This document shows, piece by piece, positions 3,005 through 55,551 of a stretch of DNA of 64,000 nt (position 1 is its first letter; every line of letters starts with the position of its first letter). The stretch is taken from contig NZ_JBBKTT010000001.1 in NCBI RefSeq assembly GCF_037892425.1, positions 4,092,001 to 4,156,000 of the forward strand, given 5' to 3'. Under the pieces are notes generated by a model. That model did no database searches and was not told where the DNA came from. It saw nothing but the letters and a program-made list of their open reading frames with translations. This stretch comes from Lacibacter sp. H375 (lineage in GTDB: Bacteria > Bacteroidota > Bacteroidia > Chitinophagales > Chitinophagaceae). The translations under genes and the position numbers were made by a program.

Positions 3005-4060
3005 CTAGCTAAGAAATCCCAACGCCTTTATCAATTCATCCGGCAGCTTTGGTAATTTTCGGCGTTCAATCAAATAAGTTGAAAGTGCAGCAAGGTCTTT
3101 AAAGATGTAATGTTGTTGCACAGCACCTTCTAAATATCCGGCGCCACTTGTATTACCCGTTCCCACACGCATACCGATCATACGGCGCACCATTACATAA
3201 TGTTTATGTCGCCAGCCTGCCAGCCAATGATCAATTTCAATCAACGTATCCAGTATTTGAAATGAAGTTTGAAACACAGGAAAATCTCTGTACAACATAA
3301 TGAACAATGCACTTCTCATCGCTGCATCACTGAAAGAACCATCAGCTTGTTTTTCCTGTATAAACTGTGTATCAAAATTAGCCAGCTTATGTTGCTCTCT
3401 TTCTGTTAAACTGTTTTGATAGATCGAGCGGTAATCGCTCCAGAATGGATGCAGTTGTGTTGATGGATATAAAGCAGCATAACCTTTCCAGAATTTTTCA
3501 TCAAAGAAGGGCATACGCTCTAACCATTGATTCACCAATTGAAGAATGGTAGAAGATGTTTCAACAGAATTGATCTCATTAAAATCATTCTGTGCAAAAC
3601 CACCTTCGTTGGTTCGTTTATAATAATCGTGCTGGTGACGTTTTTCCATCTTTAACCCAAGGGTGGCTTCAATTAAACGAAACTGTTTGCTTTGAAAACC
3701 GGAAGCAGGTGTAAGCAGGTTACGGAACTCGAGAAAATCCATCGGCGTCATGGTATCAAGTATCGTCACTTGTTGATTCAACAAACCAAGAATACGTGTC
3801 ACACGTTGCAGACGATGACGACAAAGATTCAGGTCCTCACTATTATCATCTACTTTTTCTTTGCTGAATACTTTTTTTACAAAATCCAGCTCGAATAAAA
3901 TCTGTTTGAACCATAATTCATAAGCCTGGTGAATAATGATGAACAACATTTCATCATGAGCAGGTTGCTGTCCTTCAGCAAAACTTAAAGGATGCTGACT
4001 GTCGAGAATTTTTTCAAGCTGTAAATAAGAGGGATAGTATTGTCCATTATCAGGTTTCAT
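3005..4060 (-). CDS. kynA: Tryptophan 2,3-dioxygenase
   Basis: Heme enzyme that opens the indole ring of L-tryptophan to N-formylkynurenine, first step of the kynurenine route; cytoplasmic. Family signatures: HDEMLFIIIHQAYELWFKQI near residue 35-55, LDTMTPMDFLEFR, PASGFQS, and the C-terminal block WRHKHYVMVRRMIG with VGTGNTSG. His287 matches the proximal heme ligand of the family. Length of 351 is a little above the usual ~280-330. ATG 4060 is the only sensible start. No other kynurenine-pathway gene lies in this window. Confidence 0.92.
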   Translation of the reverse strand: MKPDNGQYYPSYLQLEKILDSQHPLSFAEGQQPAHDEMLFIIIHQAYELWFKQILFELDFVKKVFSKEKVDDNSEDLNLCRHRLQRVTRILGLLNQQVTILDTMTPMDFLEFRNLLTPASGFQSKQFRLIEATLGLKMEKRHQHDYYKRTNEGGFAQNDFNEINSVETSSTILQLVNQWLERMPFFDEKFWKGYAALYPSTQLHPFWSDYRSIYQNSLTEREQHKLANFDTQFIQEKQADGSFSDAAMRSALFIMLYRDFPVFQTSFQILDTLIEIDHWLAGWRHKHYVMVRRMIGMRVGTGNTSGAGYLEGAVQQHYIFKDLAALSTYLIERRKLPKLPDELIKALGFLS

Positions 4061-9239: not shown

Positions 9240-9839
9240 ATGTCATTGAAATTGAACCGCACAAGCTTTGGTGATCCGAGAAACAAAGGCAATGTTTTAG
9301 ATCGGGAAGAAGCATTTGTATTGTTGTCAGACTGGGTTAAAAATGAACGCCTGCAACTTCACATGAAACAGGTTGGACATCTCATGAAATGCTGGGCGCA
9401 GGAAAAAGAAGGTTTATCAGAAGCTGACCAATGGCGCTGGGAAATGGCCGGCTTGTTACACGATGCGGATTGGGATCAATGGCCCGATGAGCATTGCAAA
9501 AAGATCATTGAAGAACTGGAAGCAAGGAGTATTGATCCGGAGATCATCCGGGCAGTTGCGAGTCACGGACCAAATCATTTTGGTGTTGAGCCCGAAACAA
9601 AAATGGACAAAATGCTGTATGCGTTTGATGAATTAAGCGGGTTGATTCATGCATACAGTTTAATGAGGCCCGAAGGTTATACCGGCATGGAATTGAAAGG
9701 AGTCAAAAAACGATTGAAAGAAAAAAGCTTTGCTGCAAATGTGAACCGGGATGAGATCATGGATGCTTTGAACAGGGCAGATGTTGATCTAGACAGTATT
9801 GTAACGTTTATTATAGAGCGACAGAGAAGCTCATATTAA
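9240..9839 (+). CDS. HD-domain hydrolase-like protein
   Basis: 199 residues, no signal peptide. The HD signature is GLLHDADWDQW (about residues 71-81), preceded by an upstream His in LQLHMKQVGHLMKCW and followed by SHGPNHFG and a late Asp (AFDELSG), the usual order of metal ligands in HD phosphohydrolases. Substrate is unknown; relatives are annotated as metal-dependent phosphohydrolases. The start ATG at 9240 is 31 bases after the T-run of the terminator, so it needs its own promoter. Its stop is directly followed by the first 28-bp repeat of the island at 9841. Confidence 0.8.
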   Translation: MSLKLNRTSFGDPRNKGNVLDREEAFVLLSDWVKNERLQLHMKQVGHLMKCWAQEKEGLSEADQWRWEMAGLLHDADWDQWPDEHCKKIIEELEARSIDPEIIRAVASHGPNHFGVEPETKMDKMLYAFDELSGLIHAYSLMRPEGYTGMELKGVKKRLKEKSFAANVNRDEIMDALNRADVDLDSIVTFIIERQRSSY

Positions 9840-9840
9840 A

Positions 9841-9868
9841 TGCGTGTTCCGTGGGCTGATTAACATAA
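9841..9868 (+). repeat. 28-bp direct repeat, left copy
   Basis: Begins one base after the HD gene stop codon and contains the core TTCCGTGGGCTGATTAACAT. Identical to 11129-11156. Confidence 0.9.
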
Positions 9869-10064
9869 AAGTTAGTTATAAGATTGTCGCCCTTAGTGGG
9901 TGACTTTTTGTTTTTATGCAGCTTATGACTTCCCGCCGTGGGAAGCAAAACGTAAAGGCAAGGATTGAGTATAGCTACGTTTTGCTTCCCACGGCGGGTT
10001 GGAATTTGCGGTTTTGCGACACATCTGATAACTTAATATTATGTCTAATCAGGTGGCCCAGTGG
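9849..10064. repeat. Long imperfect inverted repeat
   Basis: Left arm 9849-9890 matches the complement of 10016-10064 with small gaps: CTGATTA (9856-9862) with TAATCAG (10046-10052), and GTTATAAGATTGTCGC (9875-9890) with the complement of 10016-10032. A perfect 23-bp inverted repeat sits inside it. The whole block could fold as one long cruciform or RNA hairpin. The left arm includes most of the 28-bp direct repeat. Confidence 0.7.
9932..9998. repeat. Perfect 23-bp inverted repeat with 21-base loop
   Basis: Arms 9932-9954 and 9976-9998 are exact complements, beginning CCCGCCGTGGGAAGC and ending GCTTCCCACGGCGGG. The left arm also carries a smaller palindrome (TTCCCgccgtGGGAA). There is no T-run next to it, so it does not look like a simple terminator. 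Confidence 0.9.
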
Positions 10065-10140
10065 AAACGGATTTGTAAGTTTATCAAAGGCAAAGACGTT
10101 TCGGATGGCAGAACACGGAAAAGAAAATCTGAAAGGGAAT

Positions 10141-10154
10141 AGCCCGCAAGGGCT
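10141..10154 (-). terminator. Short hairpin after the 149-residue island gene
   Basis: AGCCC-GCAA-GGGCT lies 9 bases past the stop of the gene at 10163; on the minus strand it is followed by a T/C-rich stretch rather than a clean T-run. Confidence 0.4.
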
Positions 10155-10162
10155 TGTGTATT

Positions 10163-10612
10163 TTACGGCATTAATGATTTCCATTCAATAGCCAAATACA
10201 TGAGCGAGATAATAATAAGGGCGTATAAGATTGCTATGATTGTTTTAGCAACAGCATATATTGTCTTAATAATTTCGATTCCCTTCGTGTATTTATATGG
10301 TTTGTTTTTTAGTGGAAAATGGGGTTTGTCAAGGAAGGTGAAGCCTTCAAAAGACAAACGGTAACTTTTATCTTCGCCAACAACTTCCTCTTTTACGTCA
10401 TATATTCCTCCTGTAAGGGAATCTTTTTTCCATCTCTTTCTAGTTTCGATGTCTAAAGCAGCATTTATATAGCCGTCCTTTTCAAGTTTAATTATTACGG
10501 CATCGCAATCTATTTCTGGATTATCTTCTTGGATGGTCTTAAACTTGGTGTATTCATGTTTATTCTTCAAGTAAAGCAGGATGGTGTCTAATTGAGCAAT
10601 GTCCATTTTCAT
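10163..10612 (-). CDS. Unknown protein: winged-helix-like N-terminus, C-terminal membrane anchor
   Basis: 149 residues, family not recognised. The first ~55 residues (LDTILLYLKN, then KFKTIQEDN, then AVIIKLEKDGYI) have the helix-helix-turn pattern of a small winged-helix fold. A middle part ends YRLSFEGFTFLDKP, an FEG-x-FL pattern I recall from other short Bacteroidota hypothetical proteins, and one strong TM helix lies at about 118-143 (AKTIIAILYALIIISLMYLAI). Topology is probably cytoplasmic N-terminus with a C-terminal anchor. Start could be M1 or M3. The upstream block at 10622-10666 is a copy of the one before its neighbour, so both genes seem to carry the same promoter. It lies inside the repeat-bounded island. 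Confidence 0.7.
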   Translation of the reverse strand: MKMDIAQLDTILLYLKNKHEYTKFKTIQEDNPEIDCDAVIIKLEKDGYINAALDIETRKRWKKDSLTGGIYDVKEEVVGEDKSYRLSFEGFTFLDKPHFPLKNKPYKYTKGIEIIKTIYAVAKTIIAILYALIIISLMYLAIEWKSLMP

Positions 10613-10621
10613 GTTGAGTTA

Positions 10622-10666
10622 CGCTTTAGTTTCCCTTAAATATAGTGCAGAGTAGTTGTAGTTCCC
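10622..10666 (-). promoter_or_regulatory. Duplicated upstream promoter block, copy A
   Basis: Closely matches 11060-11105: the shared segments on the + strand are TTTAGTTTCC(C/T)TTAAATATA and GTAGTTCCC at the same spacing. On the minus strand this gives TATATTTA (10637-10644) as a likely -7 box, 25 bases before the ATG. Confidence 0.55.
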
Positions 10667-10684
10667 GATATGGCTGACGTAAAA

Positions 10685-10719
10685 AGCAAAGCGTTTCTAT
10701 TTATAGAAACAGCTTTGCT
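10685..10719 (-). terminator. Rho-independent terminator of the 103-residue island gene
   Basis: Stem 10685-10700 pairs with 10703-10719 with one bulged base (AGCAAAGC, TTTCTAT arms); on the minus strand it is followed by TTTTT. Confidence 0.75.
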
Positions 10720-10743
10720 GAATGATAAAAAAAGAACCTCCGT

Positions 10744-11055
10744 TTATATATATCCTTGCAGGGCTGGGAATATCTTTTTTAATAACATTATTACGAGTTG
10801 TCCTCCTGCAACTCCTATAGCTATATAAACCCATTTAGGAGTATTTTTTGTAATCATTTCCCATTTCGATAGGTGGCTGTAGTCTTCGGATTTTGGCTGC
10901 TCTGTTTTTATTTTAGCATTATGCGAATATCTATCTCTGAAATTTTCTTCCTCAATTTCATCATGGATAATTTCACGCTTAATAACAGCGTCCATGTTTT
11001 TCAATGGTCGATATGCGATTAATACAATAGGGTACTTCGGCTTTTTAACTTCCAT
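10744..11055 (-). CDS. Unknown small protein with C-terminal TM helix
   Basis: 103 residues, not recognised. The first ~70 residues are charged and soluble (MEVKKPKYPIVLIAYRPL, then a Glu/Lys/Asp-rich stretch and KWEMITKNT), followed by one TM helix at about 75-95 (WVYIAIGVAGGQLVIMLL) and a short tail. This is a tail-anchored layout like that of its neighbour at 10163. It has its own upstream block (11060-11105) and terminator (10685-10719), so the two genes are separate transcription units in the same orientation. Its position in the repeat-bounded island suggests accessory status. Confidence 0.65.
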   Translation of the reverse strand: MEVKKPKYPIVLIAYRPLKNMDAVIKREIIHDEIEEENFRDRYSHNAKIKTEQPKSEDYSHLSKWEMITKNTPKWVYIAIGVAGGQLVIMLLKKIFPALQGYI

Positions 11056-11059
11056 AAAG

Positions 11060-11105
11060 CGGTTTTAGTTTCCTTTAAATATAAGTAGGACAGACCGTAG
11101 TTCCC
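11060..11105 (-). promoter_or_regulatory. Duplicated upstream promoter block, copy B
   Basis: Copy of 10622-10666; the -7-like TATATTTA on the minus strand is at 11076-11083, 21 bases before the ATG at 11055. Confidence 0.55.
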
Positions 11106-11128
11106 ACGAGTGCGCAGGCCTTTTCTTT

Positions 11129-11156
11129 TGCGTGTTCCGTGGGCTGATTAACATAA
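11129..11156 (+). repeat. 28-bp direct repeat, right copy
   Basis: Identical to 9841-9868. Its CGTGGG can pair with CCCACG at 11103-11108, giving a second, weaker hairpin. Confidence 0.9.
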
Positions 11157-11174
11157 TATTAATTATACGAAACA

Positions 11175-12149
11175 TTATATTCTAAAGTATTCAAGATCAA
11201 CGGCTAAATCGAGATGTGAATTTTGCTCCTGCAGGCGTTTTGCCAGTTCATAGTGCTTTTGCAGGAACTGTTTGTGAAGTTGTGATGTGGGATGAAACGG
11301 TTTATGATTTCGTGCAGTAACTAACTGGCGGATATCTTTGATCAATTGCTTTGTGGGCTCGGTGAAGGCATAATCAGAAAATTTTTCCATTACAAACTGT
11401 GTGGCCGCATAATTAGGATGCGCCAGATCAATATCATAGAAACGGTAATCACGCAACACATCAATCACCAGTTCATAAGCCGGGAAATAAAACAACCGGT
11501 CGAACTTATTCACCAGGTGATGAACGGTTTCCAGCAAACGGGCTTTGCTGCGGTTATTCTCAACCACGCCGTCCCGAAGATGTCTCACGGGACTGATGGT
11601 GAAAATGATATTAAGCTTGGGGTTAAAATGAAACAATTGGTGGATCGTATTATCCAGTTCAGCCACCTGTTCATCAATTGGGATCAGATATTTATCAAAC
11701 CATTGCCCCGGAGCTTTATGGCAATTGGCTACAAAACGGCCATTATCCACCAACTTGTAAACGAACGATGATCCAAGGGTTATTATAAGCCAATCAGCTT
11801 TTTTCAGAAAATGATGAGCCGTGTGTTGAGATTGATTTATTCGCTTCAAGGCTTGGTCCTGGTCTGGTTGTGAAAATTGACTATGGTGGCTCCAGCTTTG
11901 CCAAAGCTCGTTAAAATGAAACAGATCGTTGCCGGTATATTCTTTATCCTGTATATAAGAAACAAGATTGCGGCATACACTTATTGGTTCAAACAGAATG
12001 CCACTTGGATTTTGTAATACTTTGAATTTCAAGTCACTTAGATTATTTCCGATATGCTCGGTAAAACAGCTCCCAATCAATAAAACCGAGTGTTGGTGTG
12101 TAATTGGCGCCGGTAGTGGCTTAATATCAATATTCGCAATCAGGTTCAT
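11175..12149 (-). CDS. GSCFA family protein
   Basis: 324 residues with the family-naming motif GSCF at 26-29 (LLIGSCFTEHIG). Further features are ITLGSSFVY near 125, FTISPVRHLRDG near 185, and YDIDLAHPNYAA near 240. The N-terminal GSCF block and the late D-x-x-H (DLAHPN) suggest a relation to SGNH-type esterases, but function is not known. No signal peptide. Its ATG overlaps the stop of the HMG-CoA-lyase-like gene by one base (TAATG), so the two form an operon with translational coupling. Confidence 0.85.
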   Translation of the reverse strand: MNLIANIDIKPLPAPITHQHSVLLIGSCFTEHIGNNLSDLKFKVLQNPSGILFEPISVCRNLVSYIQDKEYTGNDLFHFNELWQSWSHHSQFSQPDQDQALKRINQSQHTAHHFLKKADWLIITLGSSFVYKLVDNGRFVANCHKAPGQWFDKYLIPIDEQVAELDNTIHQLFHFNPKLNIIFTISPVRHLRDGVVENNRSKARLLETVHHLVNKFDRLFYFPAYELVIDVLRDYRFYDIDLAHPNYAATQFVMEKFSDYAFTEPTKQLIKDIRQLVTARNHKPFHPTSQLHKQFLQKHYELAKRLQEQNSHLDLAVDLEYFRI

Positions 12150-13006
12150 TAGTTAAATATTTCACCCGCTATCAGCAGGCTCTTTTGCAAGGCCTGTATG
12201 TTCAGTTGCAGGCTGTTTGTTTCTTCAAAATATCCGATCATCTTTTCTGTATCCATATTGCCCACCAGCTCGTCGTCGGCCATTGGGCAGCCACCAATTC
12301 CTTTTAAAGCGCCATCAAATCGCTTACAACCTGCCTCATGTGCAGCGGCTAATTTCTCTCGCCAGTTAAGACTTGTTGAATGAAGATGCACTCCAATTTC
12401 TGTTTCAGGCAATTGCTTTACAAGATAGCCGGTCATTCGTTTCACTTGTTCAGCAGTGGCCAAGCCAACCGTATCAGCAAGTGAAATTGTTTCAATACCC
12501 AACTCAACCAGCTGTTCCGCATAGGCAAAAACAATTTCTTCCGTCCATGGATCACCATAAGGATTACCAAAACCCATGGACAGATAAACAACCAATTGCT
12601 TTTTGTTTTTTATACAAAGTTCCTGGATAGCCTCTACCCTTTTGAATGATTCATTGATCGAGCTATTGGTATTCCGCTGTTGAAATGTTTCTGAAACTGA
12701 AAAAGGAAACCCAAGATAACCGATCTCGTCAAACAAAACTGCATCTTCTGCCCCACGTTCATTTGCAATGATTGCCAATAATTTCGATCTAGACTCTGCT
12801 AATTTAAGTTTAGGTATTACCTGGCTTGTATCGGCCATTTGAGGGATGGCTTTCGGCGAAACAAAACTGCCAAAGTCGATTGTATCAAAACCAACTTCAA
12901 GTAACGCATTAAGATACCTGATTTTCTGCTCAGTAGGTATGAACGTCTTCCAACCCTGCATGGCATCACGAGGACATTCAACTAGTTTAATGGATTGTTG
13001 CGCCAT
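12149..13006 (-). CDS. Hydroxymethylglutaryl-CoA lyase-like enzyme
   Basis: TIM-barrel DRE-metallolyase that in the classical case cleaves HMG-CoA to acetyl-CoA and acetoacetate, as in leucine breakdown. 285 residues from ATG 13006; the GTG at 13015 is a poorer start. Signature parts are ECPRDAMQGW (metal/substrate Arg and Asp), DFGSFVSPKAIPQMADT, GVHLHSTSLNW (metal His pair) and GIGGCPMADDELVGN (catalytic Cys loop). The first motif reads ECPRDAMQ where typical lyases have GPRDGLQ, so it is a divergent branch and the real substrate could differ. Overlaps the GSCFA gene start. Confidence 0.82.
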   Translation of the reverse strand: MAQQSIKLVECPRDAMQGWKTFIPTEQKIRYLNALLEVGFDTIDFGSFVSPKAIPQMADTSQVIPKLKLAESRSKLLAIIANERGAEDAVLFDEIGYLGFPFSVSETFQQRNTNSSINESFKRVEAIQELCIKNKKQLVVYLSMGFGNPYGDPWTEEIVFAYAEQLVELGIETISLADTVGLATAEQVKRMTGYLVKQLPETEIGVHLHSTSLNWREKLAAAHEAGCKRFDGALKGIGGCPMADDELVGNMDTEKMIGYFEETNSLQLNIQALQKSLLIAGEIFN

Positions 13007-13038
13007 AGCTGGCACAAAATTAAGCGAAGAGAATGGTA

Positions 13039-14031
13039 TTAAACCTTTAATGCATTCACCTTCTCCCGCATAGCATTAAAGAAACGGTTACGGTCTTTCT
13101 CTCCCGTTGCACTGATTTGTGAAGAGCGACTAACCAGCGTAAAGAAGTTAGCGAATGCTTTTTCATTAAAGCGGGGATCTTTTGTAATGAGATAACTCAG
13201 CACATTGTACGTTACAAAAGAAAGTTTCTCCTCATTTAGCTCCAGGAGAATGGTATTACTGCCTATGATCACTTCGTTTACATAAAACTGAAGTGGCGCC
13301 CGGTATACGATATCAGGATCGCCGGGCATAAACTTGATTCCTTTTTCAACTTCCAGCTCAATATGATCAAGACATTTCTGGAAAGAATCGATTACTATAT
13401 TTAGATCTTCAGGATGTTTAAAATAGCCTCCTTCCTTGTAATACCGCAATTGACTCAGTGTACTGTTTATACTCTCAGCATTCCATAATTCCAGTGACGG
13501 AATTTTATTATACTCACGGATAATTTCCTGCCCAAGATGAAAGCAATCAAGTAACGGGAACTCTTCAAGTGAAAACAATTTGCCTTTATACTCCGGCATA
13601 TCCTTAACTGTCTTACTCCAAAAAAAAGTTTTGAAAGCCGCAATTTCAGGATAGAGATAAAAATGATAAAACGTAATGTCTTTACAGAAATAATGCATTT
13701 TCCTGTTGGCAAACGTATTGAAGTACTTCATGTACTCAAGCATAGATTTAAGGTAATCCTGAAATGAATGCTTTTCTTCATTTATTTCGGGTGCTCGGAA
13801 AACAACTAATTCGTTTTGCAATTGCAAAACCTGGTCAATTGATATTTTGAAATGATGGCTGAGCGTTTTAAGTTCAGATAGCGAAACCTCTTTTTCCCCA
13901 CGAATACGACGGTATGCACTATCGTTGCTGATATTGAGCAGATCAGCAACCTGGTCTACCAATGAAATATGAGATGGCAATGACGTTTTGATGTACTGGA
14001 ATAACAGTACCTGTGGGTGATTCGTGTCCAT
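13039..14031 (-). CDS. HTH-domain transcriptional regulator
   Basis: 330 residues from ATG 14031 (MDTNHPQ), which removes 32 basic residues of an unlikely upstream extension. The N-terminal ~75 residues form a helix-turn-helix: SLVDQVADLLNISNDSAYRRI, then RGEKEVSLSELKTLSHHF, much like the HTH domain of phage-type repressors. The remaining ~250 residues are helical with many aromatic residues and no recognised ligand domain; similar long HTH proteins are common in Bacteroidota. It lies 32 bases upstream of the HMG-CoA-lyase-like gene on the same strand and could be cotranscribed. Confidence 0.75.
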   Translation of the reverse strand: MDTNHPQVLLFQYIKTSLPSHISLVDQVADLLNISNDSAYRRIRGEKEVSLSELKTLSHHFKISIDQVLQLQNELVVFRAPEINEEKHSFQDYLKSMLEYMKYFNTFANRKMHYFCKDITFYHFYLYPEIAAFKTFFWSKTVKDMPEYKGKLFSLEEFPLLDCFHLGQEIIREYNKIPSLELWNAESINSTLSQLRYYKEGGYFKHPEDLNIVIDSFQKCLDHIELEVEKGIKFMPGDPDIVYRAPLQFYVNEVIIGSNTILLELNEEKLSFVTYNVLSYLITKDPRFNEKAFANFFTLVSRSSQISATGEKDRNRFFNAMREKVNALKV

Positions 14032-51604: not shown

Positions 51605-52759
51605 TTATTTCAAAATACCTCTGCTGATAACGATGCGCTGTACTTCACTTGTGCCTTCGTAGATCTGGGTGATCTTGGCATCACGCATTAAACGCTCCAC
51701 ATGATATTCCTTTACAAACCCATAACCACCATGTACCTGCACCGCTTCAGTAGCGGTCCACATTGCAGTTTCGCTGGCAAATACTTTCGCCATTGATGAG
51801 CTGAGTGTGTAATCGATGCCATTATCTTTTTCCCATGCAGCTTTCAAACATAGTAAACGGGAACCTTCAATGCGGGTTGCCATATCAGCAAGCTTAAACT
51901 GAATAGCCTGATGGTGCATGATCTCTTTACCAAATGCTTTACGTTGTTTGGAATAAGCCAATGCCAGCTCATACGCACCACTTGCAATACCAAGCGCCTG
52001 CGCAGCAATACCTATACGCCCGCCTGCAAGCGTCTTCATCGCAAACTTGAAACCGAAACCATCTTCACCAATGCGGTTTTCCTTGGGCACTTTTACATCT
52101 TGAAAAGAAATGCTGTGCGTATCACTTCCACGAATACCGAGTTTATTTTCTTTCGCACCAACCGTTACACCGGGCCAGCTTTTCTCAACAATAAACGCAT
52201 TAATACCTTTGCTGCCTTTAGATCGATCGGTTTGTGCAATCACGAGATAAACTGAAGCAGAATTACCGTTAGTTATCCAGTTTTTTATCCCATTAATTAC
52301 ATAATGATCGCCTTTATCTTCGGCAGTGGTTTGTTGAGACGTGGCATCGCTTCCAGCCTCCGGTTCGCTCAACAAAAATGCGCCGATGTATAATTCGCCA
52401 TCTTTCTTACCCTGGGCAAGTGGCGTCAGATATTTTTGCTTTTGTTCTTCACTCCCGTACTCCTGCAAGCCATAACAGACGAGGCTGTTGTTTACGCTCA
52501 TACACACACTCACACTTGCATCGATCTTGCTGATCTCTTCCATTGCCAGCACGTAACTAACTGTATCCATGCCAGAGCCACCGTACTCCGGTTTTACCAT
52601 CATGCCCATAAAACCAAGATCGGCCAGTTTGCTGATCTGTTCTTTCGGAAATTTCTGTAATTCATCCCGATCAATAACGCCGGGTAAACATTCTGTTTTG
52701 GCAAAATCTCGGGCAGCTTTTTGAATCATCAACTGCTCCTCTGTTAATTCAAAGTGCAT
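51605..52759 (-). CDS. Acyl-CoA dehydrogenase
   Basis: FAD enzyme of fatty-acid or branched-chain breakdown. 384 residues from ATG 52759; the ATG at 52783 lies at the promoter box itself. Signatures: LLSEPEAGSDATSQQTTAE (FAD/substrate loop), WITNGNSAS, GRIGIAAQALGIASGAYE, HQAIQFKLADMAT and the catalytic Glu in YEGTSEVQRIVISR near the C-terminus. Catalytic Glu position matches short-chain or butyryl-CoA types; substrate chain length is not certain. Confidence 0.95.
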   Translation of the reverse strand: MHFELTEEQLMIQKAARDFAKTECLPGVIDRDELQKFPKEQISKLADLGFMGMMVKPEYGGSGMDTVSYVLAMEEISKIDASVSVCMSVNNSLVCYGLQEYGSEEQKQKYLTPLAQGKKDGELYIGAFLLSEPEAGSDATSQQTTAEDKGDHYVINGIKNWITNGNSASVYLVIAQTDRSKGSKGINAFIVEKSWPGVTVGAKENKLGIRGSDTHSISFQDVKVPKENRIGEDGFGFKFAMKTLAGGRIGIAAQALGIASGAYELALAYSKQRKAFGKEIMHHQAIQFKLADMATRIEGSRLLCLKAAWEKDNGIDYTLSSSMAKVFASETAMWTATEAVQVHGGYGFVKEYHVERLMRDAKITQIYEGTSEVQRIVISRGILK

Positions 52760-52902: not shown

Positions 52903-54945
52903 ATGAAAGCCTTTGTTTTCATTTTCTCTTTTAACCTTATCCTTTCCTTACAAATTTCCGCACAAACCTGTCTAAGCGGCAACTGCAGCTCCGGCTTTGG
53001 CAAATTCAAATACGAGAACGGCGATATTTATGAAGGTGAGTTTTATGATGACAAACGTGAAGGCTTTGGTGTGTACACCTGGAAAACCGGCGAAAAATTT
53101 ATTGGTGAGAGTCTTGCCAACACGTTCAGTGGATTTGGGGTTATGGAGTTTAAAGATGGTACTAAATACATCGGCGATTTTAAAAATGGTGAGTTTGATG
53201 GTGAAGGTGAGAAAACATTAACCAGCGGTACAAAACAAACCGGCATCTTCGAAAAAGGAAAATATCTCGGCAAAATATCATACTACGGAAAAGCAGTCGG
53301 CACCACAGGTTGCCTGAATGGTGATTGTGAAGCTGGTTATGGGATGAAATACTATAGCGGTAACGACCGCTATTTTGGCTATTTTAAAAACGGTAAGCGT
53401 GATGGTTATGGCGCTTATTACTGGGATGATGGCACCCGTTGGGTTGGCCAATTTGAACAAAATCTGTTAACAGGTTATGGCACCTATTTCTTTATCACCG
53501 GCGAAAAGTATGTAGGTTATTTTATTGACAGCAAGCGGAACGGCTGGGGTATTAATTACGACCCAAATACAGGTGTAAAGAAAATTGGTTTTTGGAGTGA
53601 TAACAATCTGATCACACCAAAATCATCATTGGTAAAAACAGGCGGTGCTACAGGTTGCATCAGTGGCGATTGTAAAAATGGCTATGGTAAATACGTTTAC
53701 AACAACGGCTACTACGAAGGTTATTTTAAAAATGGCTACCGCAATGGTCAAGGCAAATACTACTTTGATATAGGCGATTTCTATTCAGGAAATTTTGATG
53801 ACAATAAATTTAACGGCAAGGGCACTTATTACTACACAAATGGTGAACGATATACCGGCGAATGGAAAGATCAGCGTACACATGGAAAAGGTGAGCTCGT
53901 TCAGTTTGATGGTACATTGAAGATCGGTTATTGGAAAGAAGGTACTTACCAGGATAAAACCACGCCACCACCCGGCTACGATGCATGGGTGCGAAACAAT
54001 TACCAAATTGGCACAGGCTCCGGAACAATTGCTTCAAACAACAATACGCCAACAAATACAAACAATAACAAACCTGTTGTTACAAACCCAACCAATACAA
54101 AACCTAATACTAGCGGAAACACAACTACCGGAACAAATAAACCGAGTGGCAACAATACAAATCCGACCAATAACAACAAGCCAAATAATAATACCCCTAA
54201 CAACAATGTTGTTACCACAGGTTCAAATACCAGTGGTTTAGTTACCACGAACTTCAAAAAGAAAATGGCTCTTATTATTGGTAACCAATCTTATCAATAC
54301 ACTACCGCACTGAAAAACCCGAAGAACGATGCCCGTTCAATGGCACAAGTGTTACGTTCATGCGGATTTGAAGTGATTGAAGTAATTGACGGTAGTGCAT
54401 CCCAAATGAAAACAGCCATCCGTGATTTTGGTGCAAAGATCATAGGGGCAGATGTGGCATTGTTTTATTACTCCGGACATGGCATGCAGGTTGATAACTT
54501 TAACTATATCATCCCAGTCGATTTCAGGTTGCAGACAAAAGCCGATATCAAAGAAGATTGTCCCAACATTAACTGGGTGTTGAACAGGATGGAAAATGCA
54601 GCAACAAAATTGAATATTGTTATTCTTGATGCCTGCCGCAACAATCCATTTGATCGTGGTTCGTTTGGTGAAGATGATGCAAATGAAGGATTAGCTTCTA
54701 TTACTCCACCCGACAATACGGTGATTTCTTTTGCAACAGATCCTGGTTCCGTTGCAAGTGATGGCGTTGCCGGCACCAATGGATTGTACACAGGCTCGTT
54801 GATCAAATACATTGCATCACCCAACATGCAACTGGAGAATGTGTTTAAATTAACCGGTCGTGAAGTGAGAGAAAAATCAAGCGGTAAACAAAAACCCTGG
54901 CTCAATACAAACTTCTACGACATTTTCTATTTTAAAATGCAGTAA
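52903..54945 (+). CDS. MORN-repeat protein with C-terminal caspase-like protease domain
   Basis: 680 residues, exported (signal peptide to about 21). Residues ~24-360 hold many MORN repeats (YENGDIYEGEFYDDKREGFG type), in three groups each opened by C-x2-G-x-C (CLSGNC, CLNGDC, CISGDC). Then comes an Asn/Thr/Pro/Gly low-complexity linker (~375-445), then a caspase/metacaspase-like peptidase C14 domain from about 450 (MALIIGNQSYQYTTALKNPKNDA) with catalytic His526 in YYSGHGMQ and Cys578 in LDACRNNPF. MORN repeats usually bind membranes or partners. Substrate unknown. Confidence 0.9.
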   Translation: MKAFVFIFSFNLILSLQISAQTCLSGNCSSGFGKFKYENGDIYEGEFYDDKREGFGVYTWKTGEKFIGESLANTFSGFGVMEFKDGTKYIGDFKNGEFDGEGEKTLTSGTKQTGIFEKGKYLGKISYYGKAVGTTGCLNGDCEAGYGMKYYSGNDRYFGYFKNGKRDGYGAYYWDDGTRWVGQFEQNLLTGYGTYFFITGEKYVGYFIDSKRNGWGINYDPNTGVKKIGFWSDNNLITPKSSLVKTGGATGCISGDCKNGYGKYVYNNGYYEGYFKNGYRNGQGKYYFDIGDFYSGNFDDNKFNGKGTYYYTNGERYTGEWKDQRTHGKGELVQFDGTLKIGYWKEGTYQDKTTPPPGYDAWVRNNYQIGTGSGTIASNNNTPTNTNNNKPVVTNPTNTKPNTSGNTTTGTNKPSGNNTNPTNNNKPNNNTPNNNVVTTGSNTSGLVTTNFKKKMALIIGNQSYQYTTALKNPKNDARSMAQVLRSCGFEVIEVIDGSASQMKTAIRDFGAKIIGADVALFYYSGHGMQVDNFNYIIPVDFRLQTKADIKEDCPNINWVLNRMENAATKLNIVILDACRNNPFDRGSFGEDDANEGLASITPPDNTVISFATDPGSVASDGVAGTNGLYTGSLIKYIASPNMQLENVFKLTGREVREKSSGKQKPWLNTNFYDIFYFKMQ

Positions 54946-54966
54946 CTTTTTCGAAAGAATGTTTTC

Positions 54967-55551
54967 ATGAGTCAATCAACACTCGATGCAGATTACTGGA
55001 GTAACCGTTATCAGCAACAGCAAACGGGTTGGGATATTGGCTATGGCTCCACTCCTCTTGTTGAATACCTGCAATCATTAAAAGATAAAAGCATTTCCAT
55101 ACTCATCCCGGGCTGTGGAAATGCTTATGAAGCTGAGTGGTTGCTGCAACAAGGGTTTACCAATGTAACTGTGCTCGATATTTCACCTGTTCTTACCGCT
55201 GCATTAGAAGAAAGATTCAAAGGACAGCCCATCAAGATTATTACGGGTGACTTCTTTGAACACCAAGGACAGTATGATCTTATTCTTGAACAAACTTTCT
55301 TCTGCGCACTCGATCCTTCATTACGCAGCAAGTATGTAGAACATATGGGACAACTGCTGAAACCCGATGGTAAACTCGTTGGTGTTTTATTTAATAAGGA
55401 ATTTGAAGGTGGGCCTCCTTTTGGTGGCAGCAAAGAAGAATACGAACAGCTCTTCAACAAACATTTACTCATAAAAAAAATGGAGCTGTGTTACAACTCC
55501 ATTCCGCCACGTAAAGGCTCTGAATTATTTTTTAGTGCTGGTAAAGCTTAA
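54967..55551 (+). CDS. Thiopurine-methyltransferase-like SAM methyltransferase
   Basis: 194 residues in the TPMT family: YWSNRYQQQQTGWDIGYGSTPL at the N-terminus (the Trp-Asp patch), ILIPGCGNAYEAEWL (SAM motif I), VLDISPVLTAALEERF, EQTFFCALDP and the end LCYNSIPPRKGSELFF. Related enzymes methylate thiols, selenium or tellurium compounds, or halides; the substrate here is unknown. It starts 22 bases after the caspase gene, so they may be cotranscribed. The end overlaps the convergent desaturase by 20 bases. Confidence 0.88.
   Translation: MSQSTLDADYWSNRYQQQQTGWDIGYGSTPLVEYLQSLKDKSISILIPGCGNAYEAEWLLQQGFTNVTVLDISPVLTAALEERFKGQPIKIITGDFFEHQGQYDLILEQTFFCALDPSLRSKYVEHMGQLLKPDGKLVGVLFNKEFEGGPPFGGSKEEYEQLFNKHLLIKKMELCYNSIPPRKGSELFFSAGKA

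Follow-up and report, generated by a model that had tools for sequence, protein, structure and literature searches.

A 1.3-kb two-gene island at the dif site of Lacibacter sp. H375 is probably a minimal Xer-exploiting mobile element with a folded attachment site

We have analysed a 64,000-nucleotide stretch of the genome of Lacibacter sp. H375 (assembly GCF_037892425.1, contig NZ_JBBKTT010000001.1, positions 4,092,001 to 4,156,000; hereafter the window, in whose numbering coordinates are given) and, within it, a two-gene island at 9841-11156 that lies between a gene for an HD-domain protein and a gene of the GSCFA family and is bounded by direct repeats. This island is very probably a minimal integrative mobile element exploiting Xer (IMEX), inserted at the chromosomal dif site of Lacibacter by way of an attachment site (attP) that folds from a single strand and with strand exchange on the XerD side. 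Read from the sequences, the case consists of insertion at dif, empty sites in relatives, two inverted dif-like sites whose pairing co-varies, the positions of the junctions and the exchange of cargo between otherwise similar elements. The island has the features by which IMEXs are recognised, in that it mimics dif, is integrated at the host dif and carries no recombinase of its own, and its integration most likely depends on the host XerC and XerD. The original prediction, made from the letters of the sequence, had proposed a mobile cassette or satellite moved by a tyrosine recombinase of the host or of another element; the host enzyme is the most likely of these, and what that proposal lacked was the XerC/XerD pair and the dif target.

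The 28 nucleotides (nt) directly after the HD gene (9841-9868) recur at 11129-11156 with no difference, as originally described, and these are the only two copies in the whole 5.08-Mb genome with up to 3 mismatches allowed (reversed control, 0 matches); no such repeat arose in 100 shuffles of the window, scored on a 23-nt core. Further copies beside other small genes, which had been proposed as something to look for, do not occur in this genome, and the explanation given here needs none. The last 11 nt of the repeat, TTAACATAA, read TTATGTTAA on the other strand, which we take to be the XerD arm of dif, while the other 17 nt are the end sequence of the element. The right copy runs on into an intact host dif (11146-11173, forward strand), in which an element-derived XerD arm is followed by the centre TATTAA (11157-11162) and, from 11163, a chromosomal XerC arm. 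The left copy leads into the left junction, or attP1 (9858-9886, forward strand), with a chromosomal XerD arm (9858-9868), a 7-nt centre, AAGTTAG (9869-9875), and the XerC arm from 9876. The repeats are thus real and unique in the genome, but they are not an ordinary attL and attR pair as had been suggested: only 11 of the 28 bp belong to the recombination site, and the centres that follow them differ.

Of the 14 genomes of the genus, 12 have the exact form TTAACATAA-TRTWAA-TTAT once; G007, which has two near-duplicate contigs and is listed with 9% contamination, has it twice, and G004, which is in about 800 contigs, has no match. The reversed control matched none of the 14. A looser pattern with a centre of any six to eight nucleotides is unspecific (17 matches in the genus as against 16 for its reversed control), so the argument for dif rests on the exact form, and the presence of the loose pattern in 295 of 394 family genomes, with the centres TATAAA, TATTAA, TGTAAA and TGTTAA recurring among the matches listed, is only a hint. 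The skew turns from positive to negative near 10-12 kb of the window, and the cumulative skew, estimated from twenty 20-kb samples of the contig, has its maximum between 3.7 and 4.4 Mb, the site lying at 4.10 Mb. The genome encodes XerD (347.9 bits, over the curated cut-off) and has two further Xer-type matches.

Comparison of the HD-GSCFA junction in relatives, a check that the original prediction had itself proposed, revealed empty sites in three Lacibacter genomes (G001, G011 and G007), where 62-82 nt, including a single dif, separate the matched coding parts of the two genes. Of the two observations named as refuting the original prediction, the lack of any empty site in relatives therefore does not hold, whereas the confinement of the 28-bp sequence to this place does. 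The site is occupied by 1288 bp in the window genome, 1558 bp in G003, 1053 bp in G013 and 935 bp in Lacibacter cauensis (G009; named record L107), and the last three share the architecture and the place of the window element with other cargo. The left site has a 7-nt centre in each (AAGTTAG in the window, AAATTTG in G003 and in G013, AAATTTC in L. cauensis); on the right there is in every case a dif with a 6-bp centre and the GSCFA flank. Relatives of the 149-amino-acid (aa) protein encoded in the island were found in none of the 58 other genomes searched. Among the remaining genomes, about 1.8 kb separates HD from dif in G012, where no left site was recognised, and in G008, G002 and G010 one neighbour gene differs, as judged by eye.

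A second dif-like site, attP2, follows the first at a distance of 148 nt in inverted orientation (10022-10048, reverse strand; XerC arm, centre CTTAATA, which is TATTAAG on the other strand, and XerD arm TTATGTCTAA), and between the two lies a perfect inverted repeat at 9932-9954/9976-9998, with arms of 23 nt that are 100% complementary. A single strand of 9841-10075 is predicted to form one long hairpin of -54.6 kcal/mol, as against -24.0 +/- 3.1 kcal/mol for 200 shuffles (z = -10), none of which folded as well. Along this hairpin come the paired XerD arms, the largely unpaired centres, the paired XerC arms and then the perfect hairpin (9932-9998). The large inverted repeat that had been taken as a feature of the cassette is real and is better read as part of a folded single-stranded attachment site. 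In Rfam the best matches were hairpin-like microRNA families, far below their gathering scores.

For comparison we used a set of 22 elements of 681-1558 bp, mostly from Chitinophagaceae; L089, L090, L093, L094, L095, L096, L100, L101, L104, L108, L111, L118, L119, L123 and L148 were left out for want of a clear attP2 or following site, and also outside the set are the first of the two units in L097, the one-genome duplicates L107, L109, L116 and L120, and the later finds G314 and G369. In the predicted folds (DNA parameters, 25 °C) the XerD arm of attP1 pairs with that of attP2 in all 22. Beyond the XerC arms, the match within an element averages 11.5 of 18, compared with 7.5 when other elements are substituted, and beyond the XerD arms the right end matches the sequence after its own attP2 better than that of other elements (6.9 versus 5.6); in both tests 0 of 10,000 permutations did as well. 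In the window about 1.3 kb separates the right end from attP1, and only a circle would bring the two together, so this pairing argues for a circular single-stranded form.

The junctions also indicate where strands would have been exchanged. The host centre keeps the host XerC arm on the right and the element centre keeps the element XerC arm on the left, which places the exchange point at the border between XerD arm and centre on the TTAACATAA strand. Centre homology was scored in 20 of the 22 elements, because in RIFOX_a and G117 the next site is another attP1. The first three nucleotides of the incoming dif centre match the attP2 strand in 17 of the 20 and the first four in 15, while on the XerC side the last three nucleotides match in none of the 20 on either strand. 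From the junctions and these centres, strand exchange looks to be on the XerD side, as a mirror image of CTXphi, and XerD would be the catalyst. The junction positions by themselves also fit a double-stranded XerD-side exchange, in which the same element would integrate as a double-stranded circle through attP1 alone, in the style of VGJphi or TLCphi, and the hairpin would serve otherwise, for instance as a replication origin. We regard this as rather unlikely, given that next to the XerD arm the attP1 centres match dif poorly (mean 1.15 of 3) and the opposite strand supplied by attP2 matches it well (2.85 of 3), as if attP2 were the other strand of the recombining site.

Our working model, in which XerC/XerD catalysis, the single-stranded circle and the order of events are inferred, is as follows. 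The mobile form would be a circle of about 1.3 kb, in which attP1 and attP2 would pair on the single strand to give a XerC/XerD site that resembles a duplex but for its largely unpaired centre. The two host recombinases would bind both this folded attP and the chromosomal dif, XerD would cut each TTAACATAA strand at the centre and swap it, the incoming dif centre TATTAA would pair with the attP2 strand TATTAAG, and host replication would complete the insertion. The right junction would then be a normal dif again, so that dimer resolution would be kept and a further element could be added. Because the 7-nt centre at the left junction is mismatched, excision from double-stranded DNA should be poor.

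A bolder version of this model, which we put forward tentatively and think rather less likely to be right than wrong, is that the dif of Chitinophagaceae acts as an integron that has no integron integrase. Host XerD would capture folded single-stranded cassettes serially, the attP1-hairpin-attP2 region, which is left intact in the chromosome, could re-fold as single-stranded DNA at the replication terminus, and the same kind of XerD exchange with the neighbouring dif would excise the circle and restore dif, so that cassettes would be swapped by capture and loss. Tailed phages could be the vehicles, a thought prompted by one phage contig, described below, that has at least three hairpins of this type beside small genes.

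Several observations weigh against the interpretation of the island as a Xer-exploiting element with a folded attP. The circle and the recombination are postulated from sequence, and the element contains nothing recognisable for making single-stranded DNA, nor was a helper found in the phage, plasmid, capsid and Zot searches described below. In a simple match score the left flanks do nearly as well as the right ends (mean 6.4 versus 6.9), and the hairpin computed with the left flank was better than that with the element's own right end in 6 of the 22 elements, equal in 4, including the window, and worse in 12; several of these left flanks may be ends of neighbouring elements. The elements are related to one another, a kinship that the permutation tests ignore, and the 20 scored for centre homology are not independent, having 17 distinct centre combinations. 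Finally, within the window the local skew reverses its sign repeatedly, and the sampled maximum of the cumulative skew is broad.

The searches for a helper or source were as follows. Neither 9841-10200 compared by blastn with 50,697 phage records, nor the whole element compared with 72,556 plasmid records, nor both cargo proteins compared with phages by tblastn, gave a match. A search of IMG/VR for relatives of the 149-aa protein gave one unconfirmed pattern hit, and the attP pattern, run against the same collection with four gap ranges, matched 0, 1, 1 and 0 contigs (L148 and L149), of which L149 was taken as chance, its inverted partner not being recognised. The microvirus capsid family PF02305 had no match over the cut-off in 294 family genomes and one weak match below it. 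The Zot family PF05707 matched 21 of these 294 genomes at E <= 0.001, 16 of them over the cut-off; we did not accept these as inoviruses, since 19 of the 21 have frames of 510-540 aa and matches turned up in 4 of 14 control genomes too.

We also considered that the island might be a decayed deletion derivative of a single-stranded DNA phage, whether a microvirus, a PhiCjT23-like phage or an inovirus, that had integrated at dif and left its cargo as a remnant. Microvirus proviruses (BMV) are known in Bacteroidetes, some with an extra inverted dif-like site (PMC3091885), and PhiCjT23-like prophages flanked by dif sites occur in Flavobacterium (PMC9719478). We think this origin quite unlikely, because 22 elements confined to 681-1558 bp, with intact, co-varying hairpins and varied small cargo, look like a size class and not like random decay, because a Pfam scan of 21 of the 31 cargo open reading frames (ORFs) detected neither a capsid nor a replication family, and because of the lack of a microvirus capsid over the cut-off noted above. 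Insertion by an unrelated transposase or chance duplication, with an accidental resemblance to dif, is very improbable: a direct repeat round an island could, taken alone, have come from duplication or slippage, but the same dif is occupied repeatedly in several genera by elements that are alike except in cargo, relatives have empty sites, and we rejected a transposon target duplication as contradicted by these comparisons of occupied and empty dif.

How, then, does the Lacibacter element compare with systems already described? In CTXphi, two inverted dif-like sites fold into a single-stranded attP with a lengthened centre, and the phage has no recombinase of its own (PMC4246890, PMC5357621); the bases adjoining the XerC site determine specificity, and the exchange is made by XerC (PMC4246890). 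The Lacibacter element is like CTXphi in having two inverted dif-like sites that would fold to a single-stranded attP, in integrating at dif and in lacking a recombinase. It differs from CTXphi in the side used, homology and exchange being on the XerC side in CTXphi and junctions and homology on the XerD side in the Lacibacter family (17/20 versus 0/20 on the XerC side), and in content, CTXphi being a phage genome whereas the element consists of two small genes with no recognised phage replication or virion genes. In TLCphi, XerD makes the first exchange (PMC4246890), a likeness to the XerD-side exchange that we propose; the satellite phage TLCphi, however, has a replication module, a degenerate XerD site in its attP and reversible integration, whereas the element has two inverted sites, an intact XerD arm, TTAACATAA, and no recognised replication gene. 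The same source distinguishes three types of vibriophage IMEX, namely CTXphi with a folded single-stranded attP and XerC, VGJphi with one double-stranded site and XerC, and TLCphi with one site and XerD acting first (PMC4246890), and the combination of single-stranded folding with XerD that the Lacibacter family appears to use falls outside these three.

Nearer to the host, BMV4-6 have an extra dif-like sequence that their authors compared with CTXphi (PMC3091885), and the BMV and PhiCjT23-like proviruses share with the Lacibacter element a Bacteroidota host and dif-like flanking sites (PMC3091885, PMC9719478). These proviruses carry capsid and Rep genes (BMV1 is 6.3 kb and the PhiCjT23-like proviruses are about 6-8 kb), whereas the Lacibacter element is 1.3 kb and Pfam and PHROG scans found neither a major capsid nor a Rep gene in it. 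The dif modules of Acinetobacter are similarly genes flanked by Xer sites (PMC6449649), but they lie between pdif sites and are mainly plasmid-borne, whereas the Lacibacter-type elements have a two-site hairpin at one end and occupy the chromosomal dif.

Searches of an open-access library, which lacks most subscription papers, turned up no paper on sub-2-kb Xer cassettes in Bacteroidota, as judged by titles and the openings of abstracts. A further comparison, made from general knowledge, is with integron cassettes, which likewise carry small cargo, have a hairpin attachment site and form arrays at one chromosomal place. They differ in the target, which here is dif, and in the enzymes, which here would be the housekeeping Xer pair; no IntI was found within the stretch, the rest of the genome and attC boxes lying outside that search. 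The Lacibacter element suggests that elements of the size of gene cassettes may live on the dimer resolution system alone, it provides with its relatives a natural set of attP sequences for testing the rules of Xer recombination, and it raises the question of who copies and moves such elements.

The length of the repeat calls for a separate explanation. To the left of the XerD arm one would expect chromosomal flank, as in L. cauensis and the relatives with an empty site, but in the window and in G003 the flank resembles an element end and follows directly on an altered HD C-terminus. In the window this segment is 9841-9857 (forward strand), whose 17 nt are identical to the right-end flank at 11129-11145 and differ from the relatives with an empty site. 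These 17 nt are probably what is left of an earlier member of the family, which was deleted but for its last bases before a second insertion took place; tandem elements elsewhere (L122, L097) and the end-like sequence before dif in G010 point to such a history. Gene conversion is another conceivable source of the left 17 nt. In G010 (L056 near 3560-3645, G010:C2) the element-end-like sequence stands directly before an otherwise empty dif, with a sigma-factor-like gene alongside (by eye), and is possibly the scar of a lost element. In L. cauensis the HD gene at the occupied dif is broken, with two partial matches in different frames and residues 71-118 unmatched (G009:C1:607376-607817, L024, L027).

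The window element also looks composite. Two of its segments match the right end of the G013 element, namely 43 nt upstream of cargo gene 1, with 97.7% identity, and its own right end (11053-11170), with 80.8% identity over 120 nt. The upstream segment (10625-10666, reverse strand) is probably an internalised right end.

The left flanking HD gene (9240-9839, forward strand; PF01966, E 2.4e-5) has a C-terminus unlike that of relatives with an empty site, and the right flanking GSCFA gene lies at 11175-12149 on the reverse strand (PF08885, E 6.3e-88). Inside the island, a second small hairpin with a GTAAGTT loop (10062-10103, forward strand), similar by eye to one in each of the three other Lacibacter elements, is possibly an origin or packaging signal, and the right-end flank of the element occupies 11064-11145 (forward strand). 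The two small membrane proteins of the original prediction correspond to two leftward ORFs, cargo gene 1 (10163-10612, reverse strand, 149 aa) and cargo gene 2 (10744-11055, reverse strand, 103 aa), both encoding a hydrophobic stretch, which by eye is close to the C-terminus. The absence of a recombinase, also predicted, agrees with the ORF listing and the Pfam and PHROG scans, in which none of the proteins of 9841-11156 belongs to a recombinase family. The duplicated promoters and terminators could not be recovered: a 20-nt segment is repeated upstream of each cargo ORF (10625-10644 and 11064-11083, 95%), but promoter-like sites are at shuffle level (7 sigma-70-like sites versus 5.1 +/- 2.1, in a simple scan whose model does not extend to Bacteroidota promoters) and the terminator-like sites (4 versus 1.1 +/- 1.0 in shuffles) are not copies of one another.

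Neither of the two window proteins matched a Pfam, PHROG or PADLOC family at E <= 0.01. The structure predicted for the 149-aa protein is poor (mean pLDDT 55.0) and good only at a C-terminal helix (residues 109-147), which is probably transmembrane. A profile of six cargo proteins, which have little in common with Pfam, gave eight weak hits among solved structures, the best (E 0.022) to an uncharacterised protein and two to PadR-family regulators, so that a winged-helix N-terminus in the product of cargo gene 1 is possible as a weak lead. The 22 elements have between them 31 non-overlapping ORFs of at least 60 aa, 12 of which encode a strongly hydrophobic 19-residue stretch. The Pfam scan of 21 of these ORFs gave one match over the cut-off (DUF2335, a predicted membrane protein, in L115) and two below, with no replication, capsid or recombinase protein recognised, and of the ten scanned against PHROGs three match families of unknown function. 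That the cargo consists of small membrane proteins acting on phages or other elements is a guess.

Allowing a gap of 130-160 nt, we found the folded-attP pattern in 12 of 394 family genomes, in 8 of 101 genera, with one match for the reversed control; ten of these have a dif or dif-like site rightly placed within about 2 kb, and the other two (G117 and G156:C222) are near contig ends. When the gap was set to 135-165 nt, the species genome collection yielded 20 stretches. Fourteen of them, all in records labelled Chitinophagaceae, Chitinophagia, Sphingobacteriia, Sediminibacterium, Lacibacter or Flavisolibacter, are followed by dif; L108 is cut off too soon for a decision, and L104, L111, L118, L119 and L123 show no following dif. 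These figures are a lower bound on prevalence, other gap lengths, as in G013, G274 and G201, being missed.

Arrays of elements exist, with attP1 sites repeated 728-832 bp apart in L099 (1-900; G117:C77) and L122 (2779-4351). A 3.7-kb contig labelled Flavobacteriales (L104) has two attP-like patterns 0.8 kb apart (133-314 and 952-1129) and no recognised dif, and could represent an element from beyond the Chitinophagaceae, either in tandem or as a circle. In L090 from 2677, L092 from 2009, L093 from 3387 and L100 from 2651, we see in succession a dif-like centre of 6 bp, a stretch that pairs and an inverted site with a 7-nt centre; this seems to be a second class of element on the other side of dif, as would be expected with XerC exchange. 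The IMG/VR contig IMGVR_UViG_3300015171_000006 (L148, L152-L154) is a 55-kb tailed phage with tape measure, terminase, portal and capsid genes, and encodes two tyrosine recombinases of 290 and 356 aa. It carries three or more attP hairpins of the kind described here, next to small unknown genes (regions 11642-11950, 13006-13117, 52081-52503, 54927-55093 and 1-138), one copy being split inside the hairpin around a 249-aa gene, possibly by mis-assembly, and is the most interesting lead on carriage of these elements between cells.

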